Part shown: one piece after another, positions 12,152 through 25,969 of the stretch
How positions within the stretch are numbered: the stretch's first letter is position 1
How the letters are laid out: each line of letters begins with the position of its first letter
Origin: a virus
DNA: 40,467 nucleotides
IMG/VR virus record: IMGVR_UViG_3300006077_000011
Span: 1 to 40,467 of that record
Reading direction: 5' to 3' (one strand)
Notes under the pieces: model-generated
The model's database searches: none
Told to the model about the DNA's origin: nothing
What the model saw: only the letters and a program-made list of their open reading frames with translations
Made by a program: the position numbers and the translations under genes

Positions 12152-12208
12152 GGGCGCGTGGGTCTGGGTAAGTTCAGTCCCATGGTCGCGCGCGCGCGAG
12201 GTGATGTA

Positions 12209-12226
12209 TTTTTGCCGGCGCAAAAA
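12209..12226 (-). promoter_or_regulatory. Late regulatory inverted repeat, copy C (before tape measure)
   Basis: TTTTTGC-CGGC-GCAAAAA, perfect 7-bp arms. It begins inside the T-tract of the terminator at 12222..12246 and lies about 55 bp before the tape-measure start. The same element, with the downstream TACA on the - strand shared, occurs at 17635 and 25952. Candidate binding site of the Mor-like activator. Confidence 0.65.
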
Positions 12227-12246
12227 GAAAGCGGCCGAAGCCGCTT
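12222..12246 (-). terminator. Rho-independent terminator between tail chaperones and tape measure
   Basis: On the - strand AAGCGGC-TTCG-GCCGCTT, a perfect 7-bp stem closed by a stable TTCG loop, followed by TCTTTTT. It ends the head/tail-tube transcript; the adjoining inverted repeat probably starts the next one. Confidence 0.93.
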
Positions 12247-12301
12247 ATGCCTATCCGTTGGTTCCGACCGGCTGCGTCCCGCAGCCTCCCTGGTGCCCTG
12301 A

Positions 12302-12562
12302 TCAAATTTTGATGGTGTCCAGGTGCTCCTTCGCAGCCTTGCCACCCATGAACGCGGCGTTTACGTCGCTCACGAGCTGGCGGCGCTTGCTACGGTCTCG
12401 GGCCAGAGCCCTGTCCAGATACAGATTCACTTGGCGGCGGGTGTATCGCCCAATGTCGCCTGGTCGGTGGCCGTGCTCGATGAGGACGGCGTAGGCGTCG
12501 CCCCAGCGTCCACCGCGGCTTTGACCATGTTGGCCTTGATGCGGTCGAACACCCTCCGCAAG
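12302..12562 (-). CDS. Frameshift-expressed extension of the tail assembly chaperone (lambda T role)
   Basis: This frame is -1 relative to the upstream chaperone and reads WGDAYAVLIEHGHRPGDIGRYTRRQVNLYLDRALARDR, broken here by position: the helical, charged pattern is typical of the T half of siphophage chaperones, and it ends at 12302. It has no good start of its own. The upstream frame contains T_TTT_TTC at 12568..12562, a canonical -1 slippery heptamer in the correct phase. Slipping there would give a 128 + 86 = 214-residue fusion. A second, weaker site, GGGGCGA, lies further downstream near the start of the conserved part. The fused form is expected to bind the tape measure during tail assembly. 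Confidence 0.72.
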   Translation of the reverse strand, partial: LAEGVRPHQGQHGQSRGGRWGDAYAVLIEHGHRPGDIGRYTRRQVNLYLDRALARDRSKRRQLVSDVNAAFMGGKAAKEHLDTIKI

Positions 12563-12945
12563 AAAAAAGGGGCGTTTACGATCCACCACAGGTACATCAG
12601 GTTCATGCCGTTGCGGTCATCCAGACCGCGAACCCACTCGACCTCAACATCGGCTGCAATGGCGATCAATTGCTCCACATGGTCCGCATGCGCCGCGAGC
12701 AGCGCCACGATCTCTTCCAGCGGTGGCGAGCGCTCGATGGTCACAGCTTGGCTGATGTCATCAACAATGCCTTTGTACAGGGGGGCCAGCTTCAGCCCCT
12801 CAATAAACCCGTACTCGCGCATGGTGATGGCCCGGCCGGCGATGGTCGTCGAGCGATCCGGGTGAAGTACTTCCAGATCATCTGTGCCCACCTCGGCGGG
12901 TGCCGAGGCAGGTGCGACGATATCGGCCTGCTTTTTACGCGCCAT
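12427..12945 (-). CDS. Tail assembly chaperone (lambda G role; DUF6631-like)
   Basis: 172 aa, placed between the tail tube and tape-measure genes. It has the pattern of DUF6631-type proteins: a disordered Ala/Pro-rich start, then LEVLHPDRSTTIAGRAITMREYGFIEGL, quoted here only as the diagnostic segment near residues 23 to 51, then helices with VEWVRGLDDRNG and NAPFFLRRV. The C-terminus is low-complexity Thr/Ser. The start follows the tail-tube stop after two bases. Translation is expected to shift into the -1 frame at a minority of passes to make the longer form. Confidence 0.83.
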   Translation of the reverse strand: MARKKQADIVAPASAPAEVGTDDLEVLHPDRSTTIAGRAITMREYGFIEGLKLAPLYKGIVDDISQAVTIERSPPLEEIVALLAAHADHVEQLIAIAADVEVEWVRGLDDRNGMNLMYLWWIVNAPFFLRRVFDRIKANMVKAAVDAGATPTPSSSSTATDQATLGDTPAAK

Positions 12946-12947
12946 GG

Positions 12948-13709
12948 TCAGTAGTCCACGGTGACAACTTGAGCAAACTGCCCAAGCTCACCGTCAGCAG
13001 GCTTGCTGGTATCCCTCAGCGGTTTGAAGCTGACCGGAGACTGCGCAAGTTGCTGACCGTTGTTGATCAGCTCCAGGTTCTGCAGCAGACCAGGACTCAC
13101 CTTGTAGAACTCGACGTACTGCTTCTTGTTGCCCTCGGCCAAGTTGATGCCCTTGTAACGCAGGGCGATTTCCGCTTTCTGGCCATTCAACAGGGCAACA
13201 CGTTTGTACGCAGTATGGCTGTACGAAACCTTCAGCGGCATGGTCGGCGCGGGGTCCGGCAGCGAGTTAAAGGTCAGCTCGTTGTAGCCGTCGTACTCGT
13301 AATGAGACGGGTCAATGGTCGCCGGGGTAACGGTGCTGTCGATCACCACGATGTTGGAAAGACCAAAGTCATCAAGCACCAGCACGTCACCTGCGGCCAC
13401 AGTGCCAAGGGGTTCTTCCGAAACCGTGCCGGCTGCCTTCTCGGTGTTAGTGCCACGGGTGAATTGCGCAACGTTCTCGGCCGATAGGGACTGCAGCGTG
13501 ATAGAACCGTTACACGTGACGCCAGTAACGATTTCCCGCACCTCGCTCTTTTCACCACTGTAGGACTCATTGTGCGAGAACTTTGCCTCTTCAATAGCAA
13601 GAGTCATCGCACTCACGTCGCCCAGCCACCGCCAGGCACCGATCACACCATCTACGATTGGCGCGATCTCAACTTTACCCTGGCCGTATTGATAGACTTC
13701 CTGGCTCAT
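12948..13709 (-). CDS. Major tail tube protein
   Basis: 253 aa, beta-rich, soluble, abundant structural protein forming the non-contractile tail tube. Features seen: an N-terminal YQYGQGKVEIAPI start, a central LVLDDFGLSN/VIDSTVTPATID insertion, then PLKVSYSHTAYKRVALLNGQKAEIALRYKGIN, of which YKRVALLNG and EIALRYKGIN are the recognisable strands. It sits between a small protein and the tail chaperone, as expected. Its ATG overlaps the stop of the 59-aa gene (ATGA). There is no sheath gene next to it, which supports siphovirus morphology. Confidence 0.85.
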   Translation of the reverse strand: MSQEVYQYGQGKVEIAPIVDGVIGAWRWLGDVSAMTLAIEEAKFSHNESYSGEKSEVREIVTGVTCNGSITLQSLSAENVAQFTRGTNTEKAAGTVSEEPLGTVAAGDVLVLDDFGLSNIVVIDSTVTPATIDPSHYEYDGYNELTFNSLPDPAPTMPLKVSYSHTAYKRVALLNGQKAEIALRYKGINLAEGNKKQYVEFYKVSPGLLQNLELINNGQQLAQSPVSFKPLRDTSKPADGELGQFAQVVTVDY

Positions 13710-13885
13710 TTCTCACCCCCAGTCTTGGGTTTGTCTTCAACTGCAGGCGCACCGGCTTCGATCAAGCCGAGGCCCAGCAACCAGTCACGGGTTGGTTCCG
13801 TGACGTCGATTTTGGCGCCGGCCTTGTAATCCTTACCGGCATGCTTGTGAGCCTTCAGCAGGGTCACCTTGATTGTCTTGCTCAT
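13706..13885 (-). CDS. Small conserved phage protein, 59 aa
   Basis: Short gene tightly packed between the tail terminator and tail tube genes, overlapping each by four bases (ATGA at both junctions). The product starts MSKTIKVTLLKAHKHAG and continues KDYKAGAKIDV, a small beta-rich fold followed by a WLLGLGLIE helix and a Pro/Lys tail. Proteins of this pattern (HxHAGxxYxAGxxIxV) recur in Mu-like prophages at this spot as DUF-type small proteins of unknown role. Both overlaps and the low-ambiguity sequence make it real despite its size. Confidence 0.85.
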   Translation of the reverse strand: MSKTIKVTLLKAHKHAGKDYKAGAKIDVTEPTRDWLLGLGLIEAGAPAVEDKPKTGGEK

Positions 13886-14316
13886 GTATTTCCCCTGAGA
13901 ACGTGGGTTGTGGTGAAAACATCAATCCAGAGCACCCGGCTGGCGTCGCTGTCCAGTGCGTCGCCCTGCAGCCAAACGATGGGGCTCCAGCCTTCGGGCA
14001 TCCATCCGTTCAGCGCCTGGCGAACTGCGCCAACGATGCTGCTGATATCGTCCAGTGCGGCCTTGCCGGACTGATCGCGGTAATTCTGCGCAACGACCAC
14101 TACCCCGAAGGTCGCCTGGGCCGGTGTGGCCTTGCGCGGCTGCGGGGTGCCAGCAGCCGGGTTGCGCTCTGAGGCCAGCACCACATACGCAGTGCCTGGC
14201 CGGAAGCTGCTCAGATCCTTGATCTGGCTGTACTCAACCACGCCAGCAACGGTATCCAGTGCCGGCACAGCGGCCTTCAGGCGCGCTTCGATGATTGAGG
14301 TATCCAGCGGATTCAT
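13882..14316 (-). CDS. Tail terminator-like protein (Mu gp37 position)
   Basis: 144 aa. Placed after the DUF1320 connector gene and before the tail tube, where Mu-like phages encode the head-tail joining/tail terminator protein. Seen: N-terminal helix IIEARLKAAVPAL, strands around AYVVLASERNP and FGVVVVAQNYRD, then a helix with ISSIVGAVRQALNGW, and the closing strand pair WIDVFTTTHVLRG. This alpha-beta layout fits the tail-terminator fold. It overlaps both neighbours by four bases. Assignment is by fold pattern and gene order. Confidence 0.75.
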   Translation of the reverse strand: MNPLDTSIIEARLKAAVPALDTVAGVVEYSQIKDLSSFRPGTAYVVLASERNPAAGTPQPRKATPAQATFGVVVVAQNYRDQSGKAALDDISSIVGAVRQALNGWMPEGWSPIVWLQGDALDSDASRVLWIDVFTTTHVLRGNT

Positions 14317-14828
14317 CGGAACGCCTTCAGCTCGTTGCGGCTGAACACACTCGGCGACGCATCAAAGCGCACATCAACCGCGCTCGGGCTGGCTTGCACC
14401 GGATCATTGCCGCCCAGGCTGAACTTGCCGTCTGCGGTCAGCTGCAGCAGCTTCATCGCGTCGCGGTAGTCCCGCACGATCGGGTCGGTGCCTTCGTTGC
14501 TTACCCGGTGTTGGTGCAGGTTGTACCGGGTGATGGCCCGGCACCACACGGTCACCATGTCCGGCACCGGATCGAGTGGCAGGTACCCACGCTTGGCCAG
14601 GAATCCGTCAATCACCGCTGCAGCGTCTTTCACCGCATCATCAATGCGGGCAAGGGCCTCATCGGCTCGGGCGTTTTCGTCAGCCGTCCAGCTGCTGCGG
14701 TCGGCGCCGGTCAGGGCGGCTTCCATCAGCTCTGGCGGGGTCGCGCGCAGGTGCGCCGGAGTAGCCGCCTCGGCCAACTCCTTTGCACCTGGCCGCTCGG
14801 CCAGCTGGGCGTGGGTGATGTAGCTCAC
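14313..14828 (-). CDS. DUF1320 head-tail connector (Mu gp36-like)
   Basis: 171 aa. Begins SYITHAQLAERPGAKEL, the usual start of DUF1320 proteins, followed by ALARIDDAVKDAAAVIDGFLAKRGYLPL and an all-helical middle with AITRYNLH. DUF1320 proteins (Mu gp36) act as head completion or connector subunits of the neck. Four-base overlaps on both sides place it in the same translationally coupled chain as the HI1506-like and tail terminator genes. Confidence 0.88.
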   Translation of the reverse strand: MSYITHAQLAERPGAKELAEAATPAHLRATPPELMEAALTGADRSSWTADENARADEALARIDDAVKDAAAVIDGFLAKRGYLPLDPVPDMVTVWCRAITRYNLHQHRVSNEGTDPIVRDYRDAMKLLQLTADGKFSLGGNDPVQASPSAVDVRFDASPSVFSRNELKAFR

Positions 14829-15178
14829 TCGGCGTCATCCTCGGTGGTGACGCTGGTGCGCTCGACCACCAGATTGGGGTCAGACTCCAGCGTCTCGATC
14901 TGCTCATCCGTCAGGGCATCCAGCGCGATGCCGAAACCCTCACGGGTAAAGCGGAAGCCGCAGCGGCGGAATGACTCCGGTACCGATCGAATCCACAGCG
15001 CTTCAACGGCAGCACCATCCTTGGCGGCCTCCGCGCCGGGCATCTCCTGTGCTGCCGGAGCAGCGGTAGCGGCCGAGGCCGCTTTCTCGGTGGGTTGTTG
15101 GGTTGCCTGGTCAGTGACCGGCGCGCTCGACGCCGGCTCCTGACCCTTGTTGCTGGTAGCGGGTTTCTTGGCAGCCAT
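14825..15178 (-). CDS. HI1506/FluMu-type small structural protein (Mu gp35 position)
   Basis: 117 aa. The first 55 residues are Ala/Pro/Lys-rich and disordered. The C-terminal half (LWIRSVPESFRRCGFRFTREG...LTDEQIETLESDPNLVVE, motif at about residues 61 to 107) is the FluMu/HI1506-type domain seen in Mu-like phages next to the capsid gene. AGGGGG stands before the ATG. It is located between the major capsid gene and the DUF1320 connector. The molecular role is not established; a head-associated part is likely. Confidence 0.8.
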   Translation of the reverse strand: MAAKKPATSNKGQEPASSAPVTDQATQQPTEKAASAATAAPAAQEMPGAEAAKDGAAVEALWIRSVPESFRRCGFRFTREGFGIALDALTDEQIETLESDPNLVVERTSVTTEDDAE

Positions 15179-15187
15179 GGTGCCCCC

Positions 15188-16081
15188 TTACGCCAGCCAC
15201 GGGGTGACGAGCACGTCGACCACGTCGCGGTTGATGTTGGTTGCACCGGCGGCATTGCGCTCGGCCTTGACGACCTCCAGCGCGGCTTCGCGCAGCGTCG
15301 GCGGCACTACCAGCAGCTTCGGGCGAATGCCCAGCGGCCGCTCGTTGTCGCCCTTCAGGCCCTGCATCGCTGCATAAGCAGCGCTGAAGTTGGTGGCATC
15401 CAGCGTCTGCTTGCTGGCATAGGCCAGCTGCCAGAGGCCAAAGCCGACGTTGAGACGAGCATCCACGCCGTACACAAATTCCTTGCGTGTGAACACGTTC
15501 TCGTCAGTTTCCTGGTTCTTGGCCACGAAGTTGTACGGCTTGCGCTTCTGCAGCAGGATCGGCCGGATCATGCGCGTGGTATCCAGCAGGAACCACGGCG
15601 TGCCAGAACCGCCCTGGAAGTTACTGACCGACTGCTCGTCACCGGCCTTGTTCAGCACCGGGTGGTCGGTATCAAAGAAGTTTTGGCCGTCGTAGCACTT
15701 CTGGTTGAAACCGTCTTTCAGCAGCGCATACACCAGCTCGGCCGGGTGCTCCTTCGCGTCTTGGCCAAGCTGGGCCATCAGCGGGGTGTACACGCCGTAC
15801 TGGTCGTCCTCGATCGCTTCACGCGGAACACCGACGGTGTTCTCGAAGGTGCGGTTCTTGATCGAATAGCCGTGCTGCTTCAGGTTCTGGATGACGCGGT
15901 CCCCAATCCACTCACGGAAGCCGGTAGTCTGACCCAGCCAGCCGTACTCCTCGGTGGAGGTGGTCGAGTTCACTTCGAGCACGATCTGGTCGTAGTCGAC
16001 CAGCGCATCAGCGAATGCCTGTGCAAACGCGGCCTTGAACGCGACATTCAGGGTTTTCAGGTTGCCACTGTTGATGATCAT
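15188..16081 (-). CDS. Major capsid protein (Mu gpT-like)
   Basis: 297 aa, the length expected of Mu T-type capsid proteins. Seen: start INSGNLKTLNVAFKAAFA, then YGWLGQTTGFREWIGDR, FENTVGVPREAIEDDQYG and NFFDTDHPVLN, all characteristic of the Mu-like gpT family. The C-terminal part has RPKLLVVPPTLREAA and ends at DVVDVLVTPWLA. AAGGAGC lies before the ATG. It follows the protease/scaffold and decoration genes, as in Mu-type head operons. HK97-like fold inferred from the family. Confidence 0.95.
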   Translation of the reverse strand: MIINSGNLKTLNVAFKAAFAQAFADALVDYDQIVLEVNSTTSTEEYGWLGQTTGFREWIGDRVIQNLKQHGYSIKNRTFENTVGVPREAIEDDQYGVYTPLMAQLGQDAKEHPAELVYALLKDGFNQKCYDGQNFFDTDHPVLNKAGDEQSVSNFQGGSGTPWFLLDTTRMIRPILLQKRKPYNFVAKNQETDENVFTRKEFVYGVDARLNVGFGLWQLAYASKQTLDATNFSAAYAAMQGLKGDNERPLGIRPKLLVVPPTLREAALEVVKAERNAAGATNINRDVVDVLVTPWLA

Positions 16082-16095
16082 CTGGGTCTTGCTCC

Positions 16096-16500
16096 TTAAA
16101 TCTCGACCCAGACGCCGCTGTCATCCACATCGCGGATAACGCCAGCAACTGAGCGGGTGGAAGTGCCGTTGGTTTTGGCCACGGTTTCGTCGTCGACGAT
16201 GTACGCGCTGTTGCCGATGTCAGCGCGGGTGATTTCATCCGTGCTGGCACTGTTGGCAAACGGGAACACCCCGCGGCGGGTTTCAACGCGCAGATCACCT
16301 GCAGCGCCGTCGCGGTTGTCGACCTGCTCCTGGGCAACGCCCCGAGCGGTCAGCGTGGTTGCGGTTGACCCCGGCACGGCGTTGCCCGATGCATCCAGGC
16401 ACACAATGGAGCCGGCAAAGATGCGGGTGGCTGCAGCGACCGGGTCGCTGTACAGCACGCCATCACGGCGCTTGGTGTTGCGGTCAGCAGTGAGTGCCAT
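16096..16500 (-). CDS. Capsid decoration/cement protein
   Basis: 134 aa, beta-rich protein between protease and major capsid genes. Pattern: ADRNTKRRDGVLYSDPVAAATRIFAG start, then a sandwich of short strands with GSTATTLTARGVAQEQV and ADIGNSAYIVDDETV, ending SVAGVIRDVDDSGVWVEI; these are typical of decoration proteins of Mu-like siphophages (DUF2190-like). Strong AAGGAGG before the start. Expected to bind the outside of the expanded head. Confidence 0.82.
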   Translation of the reverse strand: MALTADRNTKRRDGVLYSDPVAAATRIFAGSIVCLDASGNAVPGSTATTLTARGVAQEQVDNRDGAAGDLRVETRRGVFPFANSASTDEITRADIGNSAYIVDDETVAKTNGTSTRSVAGVIRDVDDSGVWVEI

Positions 16501-16503
16501 GGG

Positions 16504-17601
16504 TTAAGCCTCCTTCTGGGCTTTGAATTGCTCGGCGCTGATGCCGGTCGCCGCGCATACCGCCAGCTCGGCCTCGGTCAGTCCGGTTTCGTTGTCGACC
16601 ACCGGCGCCTTGCCTTTGGTCTGAGTGCTGGTGAGCGCCGCGATCGGCGTGACCGAATCCAGATACGAGGTCAGCGCGGCGACGTTCGACTTGCCCAGCT
16701 CACGTGCCCAAGGCTCCAGCGCTTTGGCCAGGCGACCATCCTCCAGAGCTGCATCAATCAGTTGGGTGACTTCCTTGTCGTCACGCTCCTGCAGGCGGGC
16801 AGTCAGTGCAGCCAGTTGCGTCTGCATTGCTGCCACCTGGTCAACCGGCACGAACTTGGCCGGATCAACAGAGGCGACCTTGGTTTGCAGCGCGGTGCAG
16901 GCGGCGATTACGGCGCCCTGGTCGGCTTTTTCATCCAGCGCAAGGGCTTTGCGCACACTGGTCAGTGGGTCTTCAGCCAGGCGCGCGGTCAGCGCGGTGA
17001 TGGCTGCTTGTTCGGTTGTGGTTTCGGGCAAGCCGAGCGCGGCGAGCAGCGCTTTGAGCAGTTCATTCACGGAGTCATCCTCGGGTTGGTGAAACCCGAA
17101 CGTGGCCGCGGCCAGCAGGGTCATTTCCTGCAGGCCGTGGATCGCCGGGTTGTTGGTAATGGCACCCATGTGCAGCTCGACCACTTCGCCGGTGGTGCCG
17201 TTGTACTCAAACACCGGGCTGAAGAAGCGGTACTCCTTCTTCTTGCGGTGCTCCAGTGCGGGGTCGGTCAACTCAGCGATGGCAAACAAGCCGACGCCTT
17301 CCTCCCATTCCAGGGATTGGAACCAGCCTGCGGCCGGAGCCGGCTGGCCGTTCTTTTCCTTGTTCAGGGTCTGGTGTTCGTAGTCGAGCACCAGCGGCTG
17401 GACGCGAGCGTTGAAGCGTTCAATCACCCGCTGCGCGATGCTGGCGTCGATGTACCAGCCCGGCACGTCGATCTGGCGACCGTCAGCCGGACGAAAGAAT
17501 CCAGCCGGCGTCACCTGAATGCGGACCAGGTTGCCGTTGGCAGCCTCCGGCATCTGAAACGAGCACGGGGCAATGGCGAAGTGGGAGAGATGTCTTTTCA
17601 T
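16504..17601 (-). CDS. Head maturation protease with scaffold C-terminus (Mu gpI/gpZ-like)
   Basis: 365 aa. N-terminal half is the Mu-like protease: GWYIDASIAQRVIERFN, LVLDYEHQTL, PAAGWFQSLEW, YRFFSPVFEYN and HMGAITNNPAIHG are the family landmarks. The C-terminal half is helical and low in aromatics, fitting the internal scaffold, which in Mu is also made separately from an internal start. I place the start at ATG 17601 (MKRHLSHFAIAPCSF). The frame stays open upstream to 17649, but that part only translates the regulatory repeat. No strong Shine-Dalgarno is visible before 17601. Confidence 0.92.
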   Translation of the reverse strand: MKRHLSHFAIAPCSFQMPEAANGNLVRIQVTPAGFFRPADGRQIDVPGWYIDASIAQRVIERFNARVQPLVLDYEHQTLNKEKNGQPAPAAGWFQSLEWEEGVGLFAIAELTDPALEHRKKKEYRFFSPVFEYNGTTGEVVELHMGAITNNPAIHGLQEMTLLAAATFGFHQPEDDSVNELLKALLAALGLPETTTEQAAITALTARLAEDPLTSVRKALALDEKADQGAVIAACTALQTKVASVDPAKFVPVDQVAAMQTQLAALTARLQERDDKEVTQLIDAALEDGRLAKALEPWARELGKSNVAALTSYLDSVTPIAALTSTQTKGKAPVVDNETGLTEAELAVCAATGISAEQFKAQKEA

Positions 17602-17634
17602 GGGGCCATGATTGGCCCTGCGGGAGCGTTTGTA

Positions 17635-17652
17635 TTTTTGCGGGCGCAAAAA
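17635..17652 (-). promoter_or_regulatory. Late regulatory inverted repeat, copy B (before protease gene)
   Basis: TTTTTGC-GGGC-GCAAAAA, perfect 7-bp arms, about 35 bp upstream of the protease ATG. The - strand continues with ATACA as in copy C. Candidate activator site for the head operon. Confidence 0.65.
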
Positions 17653-17718
17653 TCAGCAGGCGGGGAATTTCAGTCTGCAGATGCAGGTGAGAGCACAACC
17701 GAGGCAAAGGAGTGGCGC

Positions 17719-17737
17719 TAAACGCGTTTATAAACGC
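17719..17737. repeat. Overlapping palindromes in the G-I gap
   Basis: TAAACGCGTTTA (17719..17730) and GCGTTTATAAACGC (17724..17737) are both perfect palindromes sharing seven bases. The non-coding gap between the gpG and protease genes (17602..17811) lies about 1.2 kb from the prophage midpoint. In Mu the same gap holds the strong gyrase site. No gene is seen in this gap. Confidence 0.7.
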
Positions 17738-17782
17738 TAAATCAGCGTGAAACGGGGTTTGGTGCGAGCATCCGTAGCCGGT

Positions 17783-17813
17783 AAACGCCCTCAGGGGCTT
17801 CTGCGGGCGTTTT
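17783..17813. terminator. Hairpin at the end of the gpG gene, possible terminator
   Basis: AAACGCCC (17783..17790) pairs with GGGCGTTT (17805..17812) around a 14-base loop, overlapping the gpG stop. The T-run is better on the + strand (TTTT) than on the - strand, so leftward termination is likely but not strong. Confidence 0.55.
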
Positions 17814-18384
17814 AGGGGCTTGCGCCAAAACCGGCCTTGCGGATGTAGTCGAGAGCGATATTGGTCAGTTCTTCGCTATCAGTGTCACTGGTACCCAGCC
17901 ACGGCCGGGCCGGGATCTGGATCGAGTAGTTGCCAATGGTCACCCACTGGGCAAAGTTGCTTTTGCGCTTCGGTACGAATCGATTGCCGATCGCGCCGCT
18001 GCGTTCCTGTTTGAAGTATGCCTGCTGGCTGCGGGCAGCAACATCGATGGTGCCGCCGAAGTGGTGAATGGCCGCATAGACCCGGTTACTCCCAAACAGC
18101 AGCTCGCCGCCGTTCACCTGGTAGACCAGGGTGTTCTTCAGGTAGCCATCAGCCTGCAGGATCTTGTCTCTGTTTTTCTTCTTGCGGCGCTGGTAGGCCG
18201 GGCTCAGCGCCTGCCAAGGCTTGCCGTCTGGTGAGGTCTGGCTGGCGAAGCGCTGATCGTGGGCAATCAGCAGGTACTCGCCCATGCTGCGCAGCAGTGG
18301 CGACGGGTCGCCTAGCGCCTGCGCGGCCTGGTTGATGATCGCCAGCGCCTGGCTGTTGTCGAATTCGAGTGTGGCACCTGCCAT
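17812..18384 (-). CDS. Virion morphogenesis protein (Mu gpG / P2 gpS family)
   Basis: 190 aa. Family signatures: LLRSMGEYLLIAHDQRF near the start, then PWQALSPAYQRRKKK, LQADGYLKNTLVYQV, SNRVYAAIHHFGG and the C-terminal PARPWLGTSD. These mark the phage_tail_S/gpG group needed for tail or head-tail completion. AGGAT lies before the ATG. It ends the packaging/portal transcript just before a hairpin and the non-coding G-I gap. Confidence 0.93.
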   Translation of the reverse strand: MAGATLEFDNSQALAIINQAAQALGDPSPLLRSMGEYLLIAHDQRFASQTSPDGKPWQALSPAYQRRKKKNRDKILQADGYLKNTLVYQVNGGELLFGSNRVYAAIHHFGGTIDVAARSQQAYFKQERSGAIGNRFVPKRKSNFAQWVTIGNYSIQIPARPWLGTSDTDSEELTNIALDYIRKAGFGASP

Positions 18385-18455
18385 GGGTTGATCCTATACT
18401 GTGGCCAAGCTGCTGCGTGGGGTTCCCGGCTATTGAACATCCAAGCGCGGCAGTG

Positions 18456-18475
18456 CCAGGGGTGCCGGCCCCTGG
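18456..18475. repeat. Intercistronic stem-loop between MuF and gpG genes
   Basis: CCAGGGG and CCCCTGG are perfect 7-bp arms around a six-base loop, starting right after the MuF stop codon region. No T-tract follows. It may slow or stabilise the transcript in the 92-base gap; nothing else is seen in that gap. Confidence 0.5.
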
Positions 18476-18476
18476 C

Positions 18477-19715
18477 TCATTCTTCCCGCCTGTATAACCG
18501 CACGCCCACCCGCATATCGTTGATGTCTTGCTCTGGTCGAAACGTCGTTACACCAGACCAACCGTCTACGCCCAGCTCAAACACGGCCAGCATTGGCGTC
18601 GACTCACCCTCTACCAGGTACTGCGCAACATAGCGGCGCCGAACCACGGCCTTTTTCTGCCCGTGATGCCATTCCACTCGTGCCCAGATCTCATCTGGCA
18701 ACCGCAGGGCCGCGGCCAGCAGTGCCATGAAGGGGCCGCGCTCGTTCTTCATCGACTTGAGCTGGCCTTTGGCGTTGGTGAATAGCTCGCTACCAACCAC
18801 CAGGCGCTCGCCCAGCACATCCCGGAAGACCACTGGAGTATCCATATCAGCACCGAACGCCTGCAGGAATGCCTCGGCGTAATCTTGCGCCGGCAGGTTG
18901 GGTGGCAGCAGGCCCGCTGGCGCCGGCCGGGGCGTCGGCAGCTCGTCTGATGGCCGCGTATTGGGTAAGCCCGGCCCGCCGGTCGAACCCGGCAATGGTG
19001 GGTCGGGCCGCTCCGGCGGGATCTGGCTATTCAGCCGTGATTGGCCCGGCACGTACTCAAAGCCGGGGTCGATGCCCTTGGGCACCTCCACCACGCGCGG
19101 CCCGTTGGGGCTGCGCTGGCCGATGATGCGTTGTTCCATGACGATGGGCGGCGCGGTGTCTGGCCCGGTCTTGCCCATACGTTCAAGGTCGCGCTGACTC
19201 AGGGCGCGCACGCTGCACTGGCAGCCCCAGGCGTTGATCGGGAAGTGGTACTGCCACCACGGGTCGCTCCAGTGCAGGATCATCCCGTTCCAGGCTTCGT
19301 GCTCCGGGCGCGGGTGTTCCACCGCATCGCTGTGGATGTACTGCCAGTAGGGGCGCTCCTCGCGCACGGCCATCAGCTGCTCGTAGCGGCCGGCCATGTA
19401 GCTGCTGCGCAGGTTGGTCTCGTAGATCACCCGGCTGCGCCAGTTGCGGCCGCCGTTGTAGCTCCAGCCATGACGCGCGACGATGGCGTCGAACTCGCGG
19501 CGGAACTCCTCAAGGCTGGTGCCGCCGGTGATGGCTTTCTCCACCGCCTGGCGAAAATCGGCCACCAGCTCGTCGCGGTTGGCACCGGCTACCACAAACG
19601 CGTAGTCGTGCTCGCGGGTGTAGATATCGGTCCAGGACTCGGTCGGCAGGTTGAGCTTACGGCGCAGGAACTCGTTCTGCTCGCGGAACGGCAGGCTGAC
19701 AGCGCTAACGGCCAC
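18477..19715 (-). CDS. MuF-type head morphogenesis protein (Mu gp30/SPP1 gp7-like)
   Basis: 412 aa minor head protein that works with the portal. Seen: EEFRREFDAIVARHGWSYNG, then RVIYETNLRSSYMAGRYEQL and the MuF-domain core YWQYIHSDAVEHPRPEHEAWNG, HFPINAWGCQCSVRALSQRDL with the Cys pair WGCQC, all typical of this family. The C-terminal 150 residues (FRDVLGERLVVGSELF and onward) resemble phage-barnase-EndoU-type or related MuF-linked C-terminal domains (about residues 290 to 410), which is seen in several MuF proteins. It overlaps the portal gene by 11 bases. Confidence 0.92.
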   Translation of the reverse strand: MAVSAVSLPFREQNEFLRRKLNLPTESWTDIYTREHDYAFVVAGANRDELVADFRQAVEKAITGGTSLEEFRREFDAIVARHGWSYNGGRNWRSRVIYETNLRSSYMAGRYEQLMAVREERPYWQYIHSDAVEHPRPEHEAWNGMILHWSDPWWQYHFPINAWGCQCSVRALSQRDLERMGKTGPDTAPPIVMEQRIIGQRSPNGPRVVEVPKGIDPGFEYVPGQSRLNSQIPPERPDPPLPGSTGGPGLPNTRPSDELPTPRPAPAGLLPPNLPAQDYAEAFLQAFGADMDTPVVFRDVLGERLVVGSELFTNAKGQLKSMKNERGPFMALLAAALRLPDEIWARVEWHHGQKKAVVRRRYVAQYLVEGESTPMLAVFELGVDGWSGVTTFRPEQDINDMRVGVRLYRREE

Positions 19716-21264
19716 GGGCGGCCTCCTCGATGATATCCAGTCGGCCCTGCAGGGCCGCTGCAGCCAGCGCCTGCGCCATACCCTCGGCGTACTGCTCGAT
19801 GCTCATGCCCGGCAGCAGGTTGGCCAGCCCATCGCGGATCTGCTCCAGGCTGTCTGCTCGCTCCACAAGCTGGCGGATCTGCTCGATCCAGGTCGCGGTC
19901 GCCGGCTGTAGGTGATCGTCCAGCCGGTCGGCTGCAGTGAGTGCGCCTTGTTGCGCGGTGGCCGCTGCGGTCTTTGTGGCCGGCTCTGCCTCTGGCGCGG
20001 GGGCTTTCTGCGGCGGCTGAAGCACGTCTTCGTTGCCCTCTGGCTCAGGGATGCCAAGGCGCTCCTGTGCCCACTGGCGTGGCACCTGAATGCCCAGCGC
20101 GGTCAGTTTGGGCAGTGCGTCAGCGTAGTACTTGAGGTCTTCCGGTTCCTGCAGGTCGAACTTGAATCGCGGGCAGCGCTCCCAGTTGATCACCAGGCCG
20201 TTGAGCAGCGCGATCGGGTAAATCAGGTCGCGGCTGAGCGTCTTGGCCACCTGCTTGGCGTCAGAGTCGCGCAGTTCCTTGCGCACCTCGTTGTGGACGT
20301 TGCCCAGGGCGTTGGTGCTGCTCGCGCCATCGGCCTGGCTGGTCAGGGTGCCGCCGAGGATGGCTTTGCTCTGCGTCTTCTCGCACCACTCGATCATCAG
20401 CTTGAATGCAGCCGGGTCGCCCTCGGCCGCGTTGAGAAACTCCAGCTCCATGCCGTTCGGGATGATGCCGGCGGCGTTGTGGCCCAGGGCTGCCAGCGCG
20501 CGCAGCAGGGTCAGCTTCTCCGCTTGGGTAGCGCCGCTGGGGTACTTGCCCACGCGCATAGGGATGCCGTAGATCTCCAGAAACTCGGCCAGGTCGCCCA
20601 CGCTGTAGTTCTTGAACAGGTATGGCCACACCAGCACGCGGAACAGCGCAGAGCGCTCCAGGTACCCGCTTTTGGCGCGGTGCGCGTGGGTAATCCAGCC
20701 GAAGGGCTGCAGAGCCTCACCACCGGCCGAGCCGCGCAGGCGGATCTCCTGCCGCACGCCACGCGCCAGTTGGAACCAGCTCTGCGGGCGGTGATCGATG
20801 TGGCGCGGCAGCCAGATGCCGGCGGAGTGCTGCCACTCGATCTCCTGGCAGACGAAGCCTTTGCCGATCGCGTCGGTGGTGTCGAACAGAACCTCCTCAA
20901 AGTCATCCAGCCCCTGCAGCAGGCTGTACAGCTCGGCTGCGGCCTTCTTCTCGGCAGCGGTGGCGTTGTCTGGCGGCACAATGTCCCACTCAAGCCCGGT
21001 GATTGCGCGGCGGCGCTTGGACATCTCCGACATGATGTGGCCGTCTTTCTCTTCCATGTCCTCGAACAGCTCGAACTGCGCTACCACGTCGCCTTGCTCT
21101 GCGCCGTCGAGGATGCTGGCCAGCTTGGACGGCGTAAGCCCGCGGGACGGGTGGCCGCCCACTTCGTGGTGCAGGCTGGTCAGGTGTGCGGTCTGCGGCT
21201 CGCGCAGATCCTCGGTGCGCAGCGGCTGGCCGTCTGGGCCGAGGATGCGTGAAGTGGTCACCAT
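19705..21264 (-). CDS. Portal protein (DUF935, Mu gp29-like)
   Basis: 519 aa, forming the dodecameric vertex through which DNA is packed. Seen: SRILGPDGQPL start, SKLASILDGAEQGDVVAQFELFEDMEEKDGHIMSEMSKRRRAI as the DUF935 signature (about residues 46 to 87), WDIVPPDNAT, FVCQEIEW, and GIPMRVGKYPSGA with the following clip/stem region. The C-terminus is helical and Gln/Ala-rich. Start overlaps the terminase stop by seven bases; end overlaps the MuF gene by 11. Order terminase-portal-MuF-gpG matches Mu. Confidence 0.95.
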   Translation of the reverse strand: MVTTSRILGPDGQPLRTEDLREPQTAHLTSLHHEVGGHPSRGLTPSKLASILDGAEQGDVVAQFELFEDMEEKDGHIMSEMSKRRRAITGLEWDIVPPDNATAAEKKAAAELYSLLQGLDDFEEVLFDTTDAIGKGFVCQEIEWQHSAGIWLPRHIDHRPQSWFQLARGVRQEIRLRGSAGGEALQPFGWITHAHRAKSGYLERSALFRVLVWPYLFKNYSVGDLAEFLEIYGIPMRVGKYPSGATQAEKLTLLRALAALGHNAAGIIPNGMELEFLNAAEGDPAAFKLMIEWCEKTQSKAILGGTLTSQADGASSTNALGNVHNEVRKELRDSDAKQVAKTLSRDLIYPIALLNGLVINWERCPRFKFDLQEPEDLKYYADALPKLTALGIQVPRQWAQERLGIPEPEGNEDVLQPPQKAPAPEAEPATKTAAATAQQGALTAADRLDDHLQPATATWIEQIRQLVERADSLEQIRDGLANLLPGMSIEQYAEGMAQALAAAALQGRLDIIEEAARGR

Positions 21265-22916
21265 GCTGATTGCTCCGGCAGGTCGATATCGGTGTCATCG
21301 GCGTCGAGGTTGTCGAAGCCGCGGGAGTGTTTGGGTACGGCGGTAAAGTCGATCTCAGTGCCGTCCATGAAGCTGGCGCGCACAGCCATCACCAGGCCGA
21401 CCGCAAAGTCGCCGTGGCGCTTGCCTTTGCCGCTCTGGGATTCCAGATCCTTCTTGCGGCCCTTGTCGATCACCGGGACGCCGGCCTCGACCTTGATCGA
21501 CAGCAGGTCATCGAGGACAGTCTGGTGGCGTGGAACCTCGATGTTCAGCGCCTCAAACTCGCCTTTCAGCTTGGGCAGCCACTCGTGGTACCAGGACTGC
21601 GACAGGTGCACCTGGTCAACAGCCTGGCTGCCGTACTTGAGCGCGGCCTGCTCGGCCAGGTAGCCGCCGTTGCCGGTGGCGTCGAATGCCAGGCCGCCGC
21701 GTCGAGGCAGCCGCTCACAGATGAAGAACATCACCTGGCGCTGCTGCTCGTAGGTCACGTTGCGCAGCTCGACGGTAAAGGGCACGCGCTTGCGCAGGTC
21801 CGGCCGGATGGCCATCGGCACGAACACGGTCAGGTCACCCCGGCGGGCAAAGTCCTCGCCGAACACATGGCGGTCGCGCGGGTTGAGCCGCGCCAGTTCT
21901 GGCAGCAGGTTCTCAGTACACCACTGCTCGATCTCGGCCTCGCGCATGGCCGGGGTCCATTCCTCAAAGCCTGCAGGTGCCTCGTAGCGGTAAATGCGGA
22001 TCGAGCGGTCCGCCACCATGCCTTGCTCGATGAGCACGCGCGACAGGTACGCGCCGCCGGACTTCTTGGGCACGCAGCCGTACTCTTCGTCGGCGCTCTC
22101 GGTATTGGGGGCGTTTTTGTACAGGCCATCGCGCCACTTTTTCTCGGCTTCTGCTGACCAGGTCTGGCCGGTGACAAAGCAGATCCGCTTGTACAGGCCC
22201 TCGGCGATCGCATCATCCAATGTGATGCGGTGGACGCTGTAGTCCTTGCGGCCCTCGCGGGCATCCTGGATGTAGCCGTTGAACGCGTTGTCCACGCCGT
22301 TGTGGGTGCTGATCAGGCGAACCTTGTTGCCCCACATGGTCAGAGCCAGCGCCGCCTTCAGCAGCTCTTCCAGCGACTCATGGAACGCCGCCTCATCGAT
22401 CACTACGTCGCCCTGCAGGCCGCGCAGGTTGCTCGGCCGGCTGCTGAGCGCCTGGATCTTCCGTCCGGTCTTGGGGAACCGGATCATGTAGGTGAGGATT
22501 TCTTCCTTCTTGCCGTCATCCCAGAACGTCTGCTCGTAGACGTCGGCCTCGGCCAGCTCGTTGAAGGCGCGGGCGAACAGCGCGCAGGCGGCGATGTATT
22601 CCAGCGCCATCTCCTGCTTGCTGCCCACGTAGAAGGTGTTGCAGCCGCCGCGGCGTTTCGGCTTTGCCGCGTTGACCACGTTGCGGCCGGCCTCCGCCCA
22701 GGTGAGACCAGTGCGGCGCGACTTCTCCGCGATCATGATCTGGCTCTCGTCCTCAAACCAGCGCTGTTGGTACCCGAGGAACACCGGCTCGTTTGCGGCG
22801 ACTGCTTCTGCAATGTCCTGCGGCACTTCAACGCCGTGCAGGGCCATTTCCTCTGCAAGGTCGATCTTGCGCGGGGCGCTGACGGCGGCAAGCGGCTTGG
22901 CGGGAGGCAGGACCAT
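21258..22916 (-). CDS. Terminase large subunit (Mu gp28-like)
   Basis: 552 aa ATP-driven packaging motor and nuclease. Seen: an adenine-binding and Walker A-like region around QQRWFEDESQIMIAEKSRRTGLTWAEAGR, shortened here by naming SRRTGLTW as the P-loop variant; Walker B-type VVIDEAAFHE; coupling segment LISTHNG; and an RNase H-like nuclease part with FGEDFARRGDL and LAFDATGNGG supplying acidic residues. The start ATG shares one base with the stop of the small-subunit gene (TGATG). In Mu-type phages packaging is headful from integrated copies, taking host DNA at the ends. Confidence 0.95.
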   Translation of the reverse strand: MVLPPAKPLAAVSAPRKIDLAEEMALHGVEVPQDIAEAVAANEPVFLGYQQRWFEDESQIMIAEKSRRTGLTWAEAGRNVVNAAKPKRRGGCNTFYVGSKQEMALEYIAACALFARAFNELAEADVYEQTFWDDGKKEEILTYMIRFPKTGRKIQALSSRPSNLRGLQGDVVIDEAAFHESLEELLKAALALTMWGNKVRLISTHNGVDNAFNGYIQDAREGRKDYSVHRITLDDAIAEGLYKRICFVTGQTWSAEAEKKWRDGLYKNAPNTESADEEYGCVPKKSGGAYLSRVLIEQGMVADRSIRIYRYEAPAGFEEWTPAMREAEIEQWCTENLLPELARLNPRDRHVFGEDFARRGDLTVFVPMAIRPDLRKRVPFTVELRNVTYEQQRQVMFFICERLPRRGGLAFDATGNGGYLAEQAALKYGSQAVDQVHLSQSWYHEWLPKLKGEFEALNIEVPRHQTVLDDLLSIKVEAGVPVIDKGRKKDLESQSGKGKRHGDFAVGLVMAVRASFMDGTEIDFTAVPKHSRGFDNLDADDTDIDLPEQSAW

Positions 22917-23464
22917 CAGGCTTTACCCAGCAGAATGTTGCGGATGCGGCTTTCCAGCTGCTCGCTCATGCCGTCGCTGCCGCGCATCTCTTCCAGGCGC
23001 TGCTCCTGCTCCTGGATTAATGCCTCGCGGGCTTCGCGCTCGATCGCCTTGCGCTCCTCGCGGCTGACCTTGCGGGCGGCGAGCACGTCTTTGGCGGCGC
23101 GCGCCAGTTTGCGCACGTCATCAACCGTGGTCTCTTCGTCGATCTGCGCGCCCAGGGCGGCATGGGTTGTCAGCGTGGTGATGGACTGCACCATCAGCGC
23201 GCCGGCCTTGTCGTCCGGGTTCTCGCCCAGCTCCTCGACCAGCAGGCTGGCCATGGCCTGCTGCTCGCGCAGGCGCTTGCTCATCTCATCGAAGCTGACC
23301 TTGTAGCGGCCAACGGCTGAGCGGCTGGGTTTGTCGGATTGGGGGAACTGCTCGTGCAGGTCCTCGATCAGCTCATCGAGCGTCATGCGGTTTTCACGCA
23401 GGCGGCGCTCAATGTGGGACCGGACGCCTGGGTCCAGCTTGTCGATGCTCGATTTTCGGCCCAT
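22916..23464 (-). CDS. DUF3486 protein, likely small terminase (Mu gp27-like)
   Basis: 182 aa. N-terminal helix-turn-helix region (GRKSSIDKLDPGVRSHIERRL, then MTLDELIEDL, SAVGRYKVSF) is the DUF3486 signature; the rest is helical, with a Lys/Arg/Glu-rich coiled stretch and an oligomerising appearance. It lies directly before the large terminase, fitting a DNA-recognition role in packaging. AGGAG lies seven bases before the ATG. Confidence 0.9.
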   Translation of the reverse strand: MGRKSSIDKLDPGVRSHIERRLRENRMTLDELIEDLHEQFPQSDKPSRSAVGRYKVSFDEMSKRLREQQAMASLLVEELGENPDDKAGALMVQSITTLTTHAALGAQIDEETTVDDVRKLARAAKDVLAARKVSREERKAIEREAREALIQEQEQRLEEMRGSDGMSEQLESRIRNILLGKA

Positions 23465-23466
23465 GG

Positions 23467-23766
23467 TCAGGCTCCTGGACGCTTCACGCCATCAACGCGA
23501 GCACGGCCCGCTGCGACGTCGGAGCCGCGCTCAGTCAGCTTGGCCAGCAGCACCGCTCCGTCGCTCACGTCATCGAGCACAACCAGCTGCTGCTCCTCCA
23601 GCCAACGCAGTTCGGACTTGACCTGGTCCCGGCTGGGTTCGTGCCCCCATTCCTGCAGCACGGCATGCAACACCGAGCTGTTGGCCCGGTAGGTGGGCAT
23701 TTCCGCCAGGATGCGCAGGATCACCAGGCGGCGGTCTTCGCTGAGAAAGTTGGCGTATTTGCTCAT
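23467..23766 (-). CDS. Mu gp26-like winged-helix protein (VpaChn25_0724 family)
   Basis: 99 aa. Landmarks: FLSEDRRLVILRILAEMP, then VLHAVLQEWGHEPSRDQVKSELRWLEEQQLV, described as an N-terminal helix pair plus a winged helix (about residues 9 to 65), and VLLAKLTERGSDVAAGR near the end. This matches a small family encoded beside the terminase in Mu-like phages. It overlaps the DUF2730 gene by four bases. Function is not established; regulation or packaging is possible. Confidence 0.87.
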   Translation of the reverse strand: MSKYANFLSEDRRLVILRILAEMPTYRANSSVLHAVLQEWGHEPSRDQVKSELRWLEEQQLVVLDDVSDGAVLLAKLTERGSDVAAGRARVDGVKRPGA

Positions 23767-24083
23767 TGAGCCCTCGCATTCAGTAGGTAGTCATTGATTC
23801 GGTCGACAGATCTGGCCAAAGGGGCCAGTTCCCGAGCCACCCCCGCAAGCTCTGCCTTGATGGCCTTCATGTCCCCGGCCAGCTCGGACATTTGGTGGCT
23901 GTCTGGCATGTGCAGCAGCTGCTGCTCCAGCGTGAGGATTCGGGAGTCTTGGCTGCTGAGCCGTTGGGCCAACGCCTCGGCATCGGCCTTGGAACTGGAT
24001 TTACGCGCGGCGGCAATCGAGAAGATGCCCACGGCGACGGTGAACACGAACTGGCCGGCACGGATGAGCAAGTCGATTTCCAT
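23763..24083 (-). CDS. DUF2730 protein (Mu gp25-like)
   Basis: 106 aa. One N-terminal membrane segment (about residues 10 to 26, FVFTVAVGIFSIAAA), then a long helical, coiled-coil-like stretch (RLSSQDSRILTLEQQLLHMP, MKAIKAELAGVARELAPLARSVDRIN described by its heptads). This is the DUF2730/Mu gp25 pattern. It begins directly after the o-spanin stop. Role unknown; membrane anchoring suggests a link to lysis rather than to packaging. Confidence 0.87.
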   Translation of the reverse strand: MEIDLLIRAGQFVFTVAVGIFSIAAARKSSSKADAEALAQRLSSQDSRILTLEQQLLHMPDSHQMSELAGDMKAIKAELAGVARELAPLARSVDRINDYLLNARAQ

Positions 24084-24341
24084 TCAGCGTTTCTCCTGCA
24101 GGTAGTTCACCAGCTCGACCAGCCGGCCCCCGCAGAGGCCATACAGGTCGTACATTTGCTTCAGCGTCAGCAATGCCGCATCTGCGCTGTTGTCATTCAT
24201 CGCCACCGGCGGTGGGCACGGCACCGCCAAGGCCGCTGGCAGCGGCTTCTGCTGCACGATCACGGGCGGCGGTGGTGTGGCGCATGCTGTCATCATCAAA
24301 GCGGCACTGAGCACGCTCAGCAGCAGTACGGTCGAGCGCAT
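24084..24341 (-). CDS. Outer-membrane spanin lipoprotein (Rz1-like)
   Basis: 85 aa. Signal peptide VLLLSVLSAALMM followed by lipobox TAC (mature Cys at residue 20) and a Pro-rich stretch TPPPPVIVQQKPLP, as in Rz1-type o-spanins. The start lies inside the i-spanin gene in another frame, and the gene runs 109 bases past it, so this is an overlapping, not fully nested, arrangement. It pairs with the inner-membrane spanin to fuse inner and outer membranes in the last step of lysis. Confidence 0.9.
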   Translation of the reverse strand: MRSTVLLLSVLSAALMMTACATPPPPVIVQQKPLPAALAVPCPPPVAMNDNSADAALLTLKQMYDLYGLCGGRLVELVNYLQEKR

Positions 24342-24609
24342 CGGTCAGCTCCTTTGTGGTGTTGGCGTCTGCCTGCTGGCGGGCGCTTATTGAGAGATTG
24401 AGCGCAGTGCTGGCGGCGTGTGCCTGCTCGGTTAACCCTTTGGTTGAACTGATCAAGTCCTGCAGCTGCTGGGTCTGTGCGCCTGAGCACGCCAGCTGCG
24501 CTTCCAGCTTGCCTTGCTGGTGGCCTGCATCCTCCACGTAGCCCAGCAGCCAACGCAGCCCAAGAGCAGCGGCGATTACCAGCGCGCCCGCAATCAGGTA
24601 ACGGCTCAT
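24193..24609 (-). CDS. Inner-membrane spanin (Rz-like)
   Basis: 138 aa. The ATG at 24609 overlaps the preceding TGA (ATGA), so I prefer it to the ATG nine bases upstream. One N-terminal membrane anchor (YLIAGALVIAAALGLRWLLG) and a periplasmic coiled-coil region rich in Gln, Ala and Thr (about 40 to 110) give the usual i-spanin build. The C-terminus is Gly/Ala-rich. It works with the lipoprotein encoded in the overlapping frame at 24084..24341. Confidence 0.88.
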   Translation of the reverse strand: MSRYLIAGALVIAAALGLRWLLGYVEDAGHQQGKLEAQLACSGAQTQQLQDLISSTKGLTEQAHAASTALNLSISARQQADANTTKELTDALDRTAAERAQCRFDDDSMRHTTAARDRAAEAAASGLGGAVPTAGGDE

Positions 24610-24848
24610 TGCGCGCACCTCATCTCGGCTGGCGGCGTATTCGACAGCAACACGTGGCTGACACCAGAGGCGAAGCTAGCGCCCAGCACGAACGCAAGCA
24701 TGGTGAGCAGTACGCCGATCAGCAGCCCTTTGAGGTACGGCCGCATTTGCTGCCACAGCCATGCCCTGAGCCACATCCAGCGGAAATCGTCGCCTTGTCT
24801 GAAAAGACCAATCAGCTCTGCAAACGTGAGGTTTACTTCTCTTTTCAC
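24606..24848 (-). CDS. One-TM lysis-cassette protein, possible antiholin or type III holin
   Basis: 80 aa. Charged N-terminus (KREVNLTFAELIGLFRQGDDFRW), one hydrophobic helix about residues 41 to 64 (GLLIGVLLTMLAFVLGASFA) and a short periplasmic or cytosolic tail. It overlaps the transglycosylase and the i-spanin by four bases each, so it is coupled to the lysis genes. The N-in single-span topology fits type III holins or antiholins, but no family is recognised. Confidence 0.75.
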   Translation of the reverse strand: MKREVNLTFAELIGLFRQGDDFRWMWLRAWLWQQMRPYLKGLLIGVLLTMLAFVLGASFASGVSHVLLSNTPPAEMRCAQ

Positions 24849-25525
24849 AGCTGATACCTCTCAGCACACACACCCGGCCCCCAGCCTGCAGCCACATACA
24901 GCGGCTCCCAGCGAGTGAGGATGTTGCGGGGATAGTTGCGGTTCTCGCGGAAGTTGGCAGCCGAGCGGCCTGCGTTGTACCGCTCGACAGAATTGAACCA
25001 GGTCAGCGGGTCGGCCCCGGAAGCCGACGCCAACCGGCGGTCGCGGTTGATCCACCCGAGGCCGCCGTTGTAAGCGGCCAGCGCCATTGCCCACTTCTCG
25101 CAGGGGCTCGCGGCCTGGATGCGTTCAAGGTGCCATTGGTTGTAAGCCACCATGGCTCTGAGTGCCCAGCCGGGGTTGAACGGCTGGGCCGGGCCAACCT
25201 GGCGCGGATACAGCTCAGCCATCCACGCGGCGGTTGCCGGCATAAACTGCGCGAGCCCTTGGGCGCCGGCATGGCTCGTCACATGCGGTCGCCAGCCGCT
25301 CTCTTGATGGATCTGCGCCGCCAGCGTTGCCACCGGCGCACCGAGCCCAAAGCCATGCTGAGCAACACGCACCAGGTCGCGCCGGTATTGCTCAGCAGCA
25401 CGGGGCACGTCGGCAGCAGCGGGCTGGCAGTTGGCCAAGGCAAAGATGATCACCCAGATCAGCAGCACAATCAGGCTGAACAGGCGGCAGTTGCCTCGGC
25501 GGTCGATACGATCGCGGGCCTGCAT
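24845..25525 (-). CDS. SLT-type lytic transglycosylase endolysin, membrane-anchored
   Basis: 226 aa. N-terminal hydrophobic segment (about residues 15 to 33, LFSLIVLLIWVIIFALAN) may be a signal or signal-anchor. The SLT domain shows the catalytic Glu in AQIHQESGW, then GAQGLAQFMPATAAWM and MALAAYNGGLGWINRD, all classic. It cuts peptidoglycan glycan strands to 1,6-anhydro products. The phage therefore has this enzyme here and a GH24 lysozyme at the far end. It starts two bases after the holin stop. Confidence 0.92.
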   Translation of the reverse strand: MQARDRIDRRGNCRLFSLIVLLIWVIIFALANCQPAAADVPRAAEQYRRDLVRVAQHGFGLGAPVATLAAQIHQESGWRPHVTSHAGAQGLAQFMPATAAWMAELYPRQVGPAQPFNPGWALRAMVAYNQWHLERIQAASPCEKWAMALAAYNGGLGWINRDRRLASASGADPLTWFNSVERYNAGRSAANFRENRNYPRNILTRWEPLYVAAGWGPGVCAERYQL

Positions 25526-25527
25526 GG

Positions 25528-25881
25528 TCAGAGCCCCAGCGTCAGGCCGAGCACGCAGGCCAGCACGATCAGCGAGCGGCGCAGGCAGGCGGCAGCAAAG
25601 GCGATGGTGTAGCGGTAGGCCTCTTGCGTGTCAGTACTTCCACCGCCGGGGCAGTTGCGGTTCGGCAGGCATTCATGCGGGCGGGCATACGGGAACAGCG
25701 CGCGATCCAGCCAGTAGGCCAGCACAACGCCCAGGGTCACCAGAGCGACCTTGTAGGCGATCACCGGCATCTGCTCGGGCGCAGCAAGCGCCAGGGCAAC
25801 CAGCAGGAACACAGAAACCAGAATCCAAAGCGTCAGCCTTGGCAGGCGGGATTGAGGGTTACACGCGGGGGAACTGTACAT
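25528..25881 (-). CDS. Putative holin with two or three membrane spans
   Basis: 117 aa. Hydrophobic helices about residues 15 to 33 (LTLWILVSVFLLVALALAA) and 40 to 60 (VIAYKVALVTLGVVLAYWL), and a third at the end (about 98 to 116, LIVLACVLGLTLGL). The LPRLTLW start and YWLDRALFPYARP match putative holins found before the transglycosylase in Pseudomonas Mu-like prophages. CAGGAG precedes the ATG. First gene of the late lysis transcript, about 70 bases downstream of regulatory repeat A. Confidence 0.82.
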   Translation of the reverse strand: MYSSPACNPQSRLPRLTLWILVSVFLLVALALAAPEQMPVIAYKVALVTLGVVLAYWLDRALFPYARPHECLPNRNCPGGGSTDTQEAYRYTIAFAAACLRRSLIVLACVLGLTLGL

Positions 25882-25951
25882 TGCTCATCTCCTGAAGTCT
25901 GAGGTTGGAACCATTCAGAGCTTCAGGGTGAGCTATTGGGGGTTAGGTGTA

Positions 25952-25969
25952 ATTTTGCCGGCGCAAAAA
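25952..25969 (-). promoter_or_regulatory. Late regulatory inverted repeat, copy A (before lysis operon)
   Basis: ATTTTGC-CGGC-GCAAAAA: six of seven arm pairs match the perfect copies B and C. It lies in the 98-base gap between the Cys-rich gene and the holin, about 70 bp before the holin ATG, and the - strand continues TTACA. Candidate activator site for the lysis/packaging transcript. Confidence 0.65.

Follow-up and report, generated by a model that had tools for sequence, protein, structure and literature searches.

The window analysed here, the full 40,467 nucleotides of IMG/VR virus record IMGVR_UViG_3300006077_000011, carries a B3-like transposable phage in which three copies of the dyad TTTTTGC-N4-GCAAAAA stand ahead of the late units. 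Which protein acts at these sites, and where does transcription start relative to the genes behind them? A sequence-only reading, made without database searches, had called the palindrome novel and proposed that the phage's only Mor/C-type activator switches on three late promoters there, with a nearly leaderless protease transcript. The comparisons presented below make it likely that the dyads belong to Mor-type late promoters, that the protease mRNA is leaderless, and that the starts of the late genes are locked in RNA entering from upstream, these three elements being taken together as one explanation.

The dyads and the Mor-type activator

The first genes downstream of the dyads, all on the minus strand, encode the tape-measure protein, the Mu-like I protease, and the holin. 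Copies A and B are perfect, and copy C has a single mismatch. At no more than one mismatch, these three copies are found in the window, compared with 0 expected from 100 shuffles; a candidate fourth copy at 29214 has three mismatches, which is the chance level, and was rejected. In the 4.3-Mb genome of Pseudomonas abyssi, the 17-base form TTTTTGC-N4-GCAAAA occurs at three places only, all of them within a near-identical prophage. All three dyads are intergenic and lie 57, 33, and 70 bp ahead of the ATG of the tape-measure, protease, and holin genes, respectively, in agreement with the 30 to 70 bp given by the sequence-only reading. The similarity that it had noticed past the right arm on the minus strand is present in all three copies, in which TACA directly follows the arm. 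A comparison with Rfam gave no match.

As had also been claimed, the window encodes a single protein of the Mor/C family (PF08765), and no separate C activator was found besides it by profile search. Its closest solved relative is the Mor protein of Mu (1rr7). Exactly one PF08765 match is present in 25 of the 27 contigs of relatives, and the Mor profile search finds two matches in Mu.

The sites were compared in JBD25, PM105, B3, phiSHP3, Mu, and D3112, and in approximately 80 IMG/VR loci around relatives of the protease. For each phage, the 24 bases at -53 to -30 of its protease were searched against its own locus. The best non-self matches fall ahead of the lysis unit (approximately 8-9 kb upstream) and ahead of the tape measure (5.4-7 kb downstream). 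Both extra sites are present in the window, in PM105 and B3, in the JBD25-like locus L023, and in L014, L015, L018, L020, and L021; one is present in phiSHP3 and in the D3112-like loci L052, L076, L077, L089, and L090. In other loci farther removed from the window, such as L036, L039, L047, L063, L082, and L084, no second site was outstanding. At each of the three places, JBD25, whose Mor is 61% identical to that of the window, exhibits a site of the type TTTT..GC-N3-CTTCCAAAA with TAC or GAC after it. The conservation for which the sequence-only reading had suggested searching is therefore present: phage-specific dyads, two or three per phage, precede the protease, lysis, and tape-measure units in most nearer lineages. 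The palindrome is indeed novel in its letters, but not in its kind, which is Mor-type.

Over 22 phages, dyad identity rises with Mor identity (r=0.79, partial correlation 0.78), whereas the same comparison gives 0.31 for the DNA just upstream and 0.28 for the spacer. Mean palindromicity, with the start-proximal repeat excluded and positions counted from the A of the protease ATG, is highest at -43.5 in a first set of relatives and at -42.5 in a hold-out set (both defined below). The Mor dyad of Mu is centred at -43.5 and spans -51 to -36, in a promoter that lacks a -35 element (PMC4287176). Given that the dyads track Mor and that their distance from the -10 is as in Mu Mor, they can be regarded with high confidence as Mor-dependent promoters, and one protein may well serve all three, as initially proposed. 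The single Mor-type activator would bind the dyads as a dimer at about -43 and bring in the host RNA polymerase at weak promoters with a -10 but no -35, thereby switching on the lysis/packaging, protease/head, and tape measure/tail tip units.

The protease promoter and its start codon

The relatives of the protease (40 non-redundant sequences) were aligned on the ATG. For B3 ORF36 and the D3112 protease, the annotated starts were replaced by the conserved ATG, and L060 and L072, which have no clear start, were excluded. A separate hold-out set was taken from PM105-type proteases and comprises 26 unrelated upstream regions. In the first set, the conserved positions are A-11 (82%), A-8 (60%), T-7 (78%), and C-1 (97%), with little conservation from -30 to -20. 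A-11 occurs together with T-7 in 77% of 39 first-set proteases and in 65% of the 26 hold-out regions, against a background of 5-6%. With +1 set on the A of the ATG, A-11, A-8, T-7, and C-1 fall where a sigma-70 -10 element and an initiator would lie. The protease start is ATG in 39 of 39 cases, and a Shine-Dalgarno motif is present in only 5% of protease upstream regions, versus 75% for genes other than the protease in JBD25 and PM105. The predicted placement of +1 on the A of the ATG, the C at -1, and the near absence of a Shine-Dalgarno motif point to a leaderless protease mRNA across many lineages. We favour this conclusion with good confidence; the protease RNA would thus begin on the A of the ATG, a conserved position, which goes further than the nearly leaderless transcript suggested by the sequence-only reading.

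The promoters at the dyads exhibit a -10 but no -35, and a scan of the window with the sigma-70 consensus found no -35/-10 pair at the dyad sites. In the hold-out set, 17 of 18 holin and tape-measure promoters (94%), which were located by the dyad alone, carry A-11 together with T-7. An explanation of A-11/T-7 as a mere effect of the hairpin loop described below was rejected, because the same hexamer is present where that loop is lacking, at holin and tape-measure promoters. In the D3112-like loci L052 and L076, the lysis unit opens with a gene that shows the arrangement of the protease, together with the repeat and the ATG.

The tape-measure gene of the window has a predicted leader of 24 nucleotides without a Shine-Dalgarno motif. 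Tape-measure leaders of 22-26 nucleotides are predicted for the window, L014, L018, L020, L021, JBD25, PM105, and B3, and at least those of JBD25 and PM105 have no Shine-Dalgarno motif. At 19857-19884 of L120, B3 ORF36 has an annotated CTG start, and the conserved ATG lies approximately 27 nucleotides downstream, directly after GCCGCCtcactctgGGCGGC.

Complementarity between promoters and gene starts

The protease -10 lies within an inverted repeat, the loop of which contains most or all of the hexamer (Table 1). In 35 of the 40 protease relatives, 4 or more pairs form a stem whose 3' arm ends at -3 to -1, versus 0-10% at control positions. The mean protease stem is 5.13, compared with 3.05 +/- 0.26 when the 3' arms are swapped between phages (maximum 3.87 in 2000 trials).

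A similar relation is observed at the other late promoters. In 22 tape-measure and lysis promoters, the segment from -22 to +3 pairs with the start of its own gene with a mean z of -2.06, versus -0.16 to 0.12 for controls, and the observed pairing was reached in 0 of 500 trials in which segments were swapped between phages, for the tape-measure and lysis classes each. When the upstream window is moved, the pairing excess is highest at -12 to +1 and is gone for windows from +1 on. In 13 of 24 promoters, the start region ranks among the top 5% of the windows downstream, so the complementarity is common but not universal. Examples are L090, in which ATACTGACGCCA pairs with TGGCGTCAGTATG, and the tape measure of L018, in which ACATTCGAGCCA pairs with TGGCTCGACATGT. 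The permutation result is repeated in the hold-out set (0 of 500). The complementarity of each promoter to the start region of its gene, which the sequence-only reading had not foreseen, is kept by compensatory change between phages.

At each promoter, the sequence just before +1 would thus be able to pair with the first gene, at its start codon or ribosome site. Read-through RNA arriving from upstream would fold and conceal the gene start, whereas RNA started by the activator would lack the 5' arm and would be translatable. In predictions for the three promoters of the window, AUG openness is 0.62, 0.59, and 0.50 when the RNA reads through from upstream, and increases to 0.89, 0.86, and 0.93 when it starts at the promoter. 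It is reasonably likely that read-through RNA is translationally locked in this way and that promoter RNA is free, and the lock would serve to keep late proteins off without the activator. A late promoter placed inside a hairpin that hides the start would gate the late genes twice by one event, the activator-dependent start of transcription.

Several points weigh against this explanation. The correlation between Mor and dyads shares its ancestry with the rest of the genome, for which it is corrected only in part. Among the PM105-type sequences, the repeat at the protease is less pronounced, with at least 4 pairs in 38%, and the hold-out z of the pairing is modest (-0.74), perhaps partly because starts were assigned automatically. 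No special pairing was found at the holin promoters of L015, L020, L023, and L058 or at the tape-measure promoters of L020 and L077. In addition, the RNA folding values are thermodynamic predictions, and no transcript-start, binding, or translation data were found in the literature located on the B3/D3112-like group.

Table 1 Features of the window related to the late promoters
Feature	Position	Strand	Basis
Copy A, putative activator dyad of tape-measure promoter	12209..12226	.	pattern match
Copy B, putative activator dyad of protease/head promoter	17635..17652	.	-51..-34, centre -42.5; position kept in relatives
Copy C, putative activator dyad of lysis/packaging promoter	25952..25969	.	1 mismatch
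Mor-family late transcription activator, 120 amino acids	37001..37363	+	PF08765 6e-30; Mu Mor 1rr7 E 5e-6
-10 element AATCAT, protease promoter	17608..17613	-	A-11/T-7 conservation in 40 relatives
Predicted transcription start, A of protease ATG (leaderless)	17601	-	-10 spacing, C-1
Inverted repeat GGGCCA-ATCA-TGGCCC around protease -10	17603..17618	-	3' arm ends 1 nucleotide before ATG
-10 element GACCAT, predicted +1 about 12175 (tape measure)	12182..12187	-	spacing from dyad
5' arm CCATGGG overlapping tape-measure -10	12179..12185	-	complementary to CCCATG at start codon
3' arm CCCATG with tape-measure ATG (12151-12149)	12149..12154	-	sequence
-10 element CACCCT, predicted +1 about 25918 (holin)	25925..25930	-	spacing from dyad
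5' arm ACCCTGAAG overlapping holin -10/discriminator	25921..25929	-	own-start duplex -20.2 kcal/mol, z -4.7
3' arm CTTCAGGAG with holin Shine-Dalgarno AGGAG (25889-25893)	25889..25897	-	pairs with ACCCTGAAG
Mu-like I protease, 365 amino acids, first of head unit	16504..17601	-	PF10123 1e-108
Tape-measure protein, 1176 amino acids	8621..12151	-	PF06791, phrog_24
Holin, first of lysis/packaging unit	25528..25881	-	PF13272 4e-31, phrog_1528
Terminator-like hairpin	12229..12246	-	pattern scan; T tract continues into left arm of dyad A

Other elements are found close to these sites. An alternating CG run lies between the dyad and the -10 of the window tape-measure promoter (12188-12199), and likewise at the tape-measure promoters of JBD25, PM105, B3, L020, and L077 and at the holin promoters of PM105 and B3; it could favour Z-DNA or melting. 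As the T tract of the terminator-like hairpin merges into the tape-measure dyad, incoming transcription may also stop there. In JBD25 (L001), the gap before 27322 contains a terminator-like hairpin whose T tract is fused with the tape-measure dyad at its left arm. In the gap ahead of the window protease, the palindrome GCGTTTATAAACGC is present at 17724-17737; TTTATAAA occurs at -111 to -156 in 20 of 69 relatives, with practically none expected, and the corresponding gap of Mu contains an annotated gyrase cut site. Downstream of the Mor gene, 37578-39506 encodes a 642-amino-acid protein (phrog_8572).

Alternative explanations, known systems, and significance

The late promoters could be Mor-dependent with the protease repeat being a DNA operator or a promoter-opening feature instead of an RNA lock. 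This is unlikely, although the repeat does enclose the -10 hexamer, and the lock has no account of the L015 holin promoter, approximately 7.9 kb upstream of the protease, where GCCCCC-TATGTT-GGGGGC surrounds the -10 and the ATG is some 36 nucleotides off. The arms vary freely among phages with nearly the same dyad and yet remain complementary, the 3' arm of tape-measure and holin genes tends to track the start codon or Shine-Dalgarno motif at varied distance, and Mu, with its mapped starts, fits the lock, all of which argues against a DNA operator. We give a still lower probability to transcription that begins upstream of the repeat, which would place the hairpin in an ordinary 5' leader of a protease mRNA that is not leaderless. 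Such a leader exists in Mu I, where transcription starts approximately 25 nucleotides before the ATG and a Shine-Dalgarno motif follows, and the hold-out loci L201, L205, L208, L217, L239, and L242 exhibit a hairpin before the ATG with no -10 at -11/-7. Against it stand the fixed spacing of A-11, T-7, C-1, and the dyad from the ATG, with little conservation at -30 to -20, and the occurrence of the same -10 spacing where no ATG is adjacent, at the holin and tape-measure promoters.

The remaining alternatives concern the dyads themselves. That they serve another regulator, such as a phage repressor or a host protein, is very improbable: Mor similarity follows the dyad far better than the neighbouring sequence, the centre corresponds to the -43.5 of Mor, and the pattern is restricted to the prophage within the host genome. 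Even less credit, close to none, can be given to bidirectional terminators or chance AT-rich palindromes. The T tract of a terminator does extend into dyad A; however, the dyads have a T tract before the stem and an A tract after it, which is the wrong order for an intrinsic terminator and led us to reject that function, and chance is opposed by the expectation of 0 copies and by the conserved position.

The explanation by Mor-type promoters with start-hiding hairpins can be compared with Mu, whose late starts, mapped by S1 nuclease according to PMC4461284, can be located from the oligonucleotides of that paper, which place 20 nucleotides downstream of the starts. At Mu lys, GCCATCA at -6 to +1 is complementary to TGATGGC over the start codons, and at Mu I, CTGACTGCTCA is complementary to TGAGCAGCAGG over the ribosome site. 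These two mapped starts sit at the end of the 5' arm, which agrees with what the model requires. Mu P, whose start is within a gene 347 nucleotides upstream, shows no such pairing and no lock. The Mu Pm promoter and Mor (PMC4287176; PDB 1rr7) resemble the system of the window in having a Mor-family dimer, a dyad near -43.5, and a -10 without a -35; here, in contrast, one Mor-type protein would act directly on the late operons, the dyad letters are different, and the protease start is on the ATG. The lysis and I-protease units of Mu are started from the same places, from Plys and PI, but through a second activator, C, which also acts on PP and has other sites (PMC4461284), and Mu I, unlike the protease of the window, has a leader with a Shine-Dalgarno motif. 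That Mu-like phages, Mu included, commonly set their late promoters in hairpins hiding the start of the first gene, with the leaderless protease mRNA of many of them as the extreme form, has a chance slightly better than even.

Fold-back inhibition of read-through RNA occurs in IS10 and IS50. In T4, the genes e, soc, and 49 exhibit hairpins in early transcripts, and their late promoter is located in the hairpin that blocks translation of the early RNA. IS200 is likewise protected from transcripts that enter it, by an RNA fold that covers the ribosome site (PMC3196728). In the transposons, as proposed here, incoming RNA folds over the gene start and the RNA of the element's own promoter does not; the phage differs in that late operons are concerned, with several promoters per element and the -10 in the blocking arm or loop. 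The T4 genes share the late promoter within a translation-blocking hairpin, but belong to another phage type, whereas the present arrangement is tied to leaderless starts and a Mor activator. For Mu-like phages, no account of late mRNAs without a leader or of locks embedded in promoters was found in a literature collection with few subscription journals and without the first papers on the Mu promoters; priority is thus not established.

These results provide a concrete late-gene circuit for B3/D3112-like transposable phages, in which one activator would act through phage-specific dyads that track it. The pairs of activator and dyad constitute a natural series from which the DNA choice of Mor may be decoded. 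Leaderless messages are rare in gammaproteobacteria, and a leaderless mRNA is predicted here for a key head gene in phages of this group. The lock would also help to explain how lethal late genes could stay silent despite read-through in a prophage that can insert at any site, frequently behind active host promoters.

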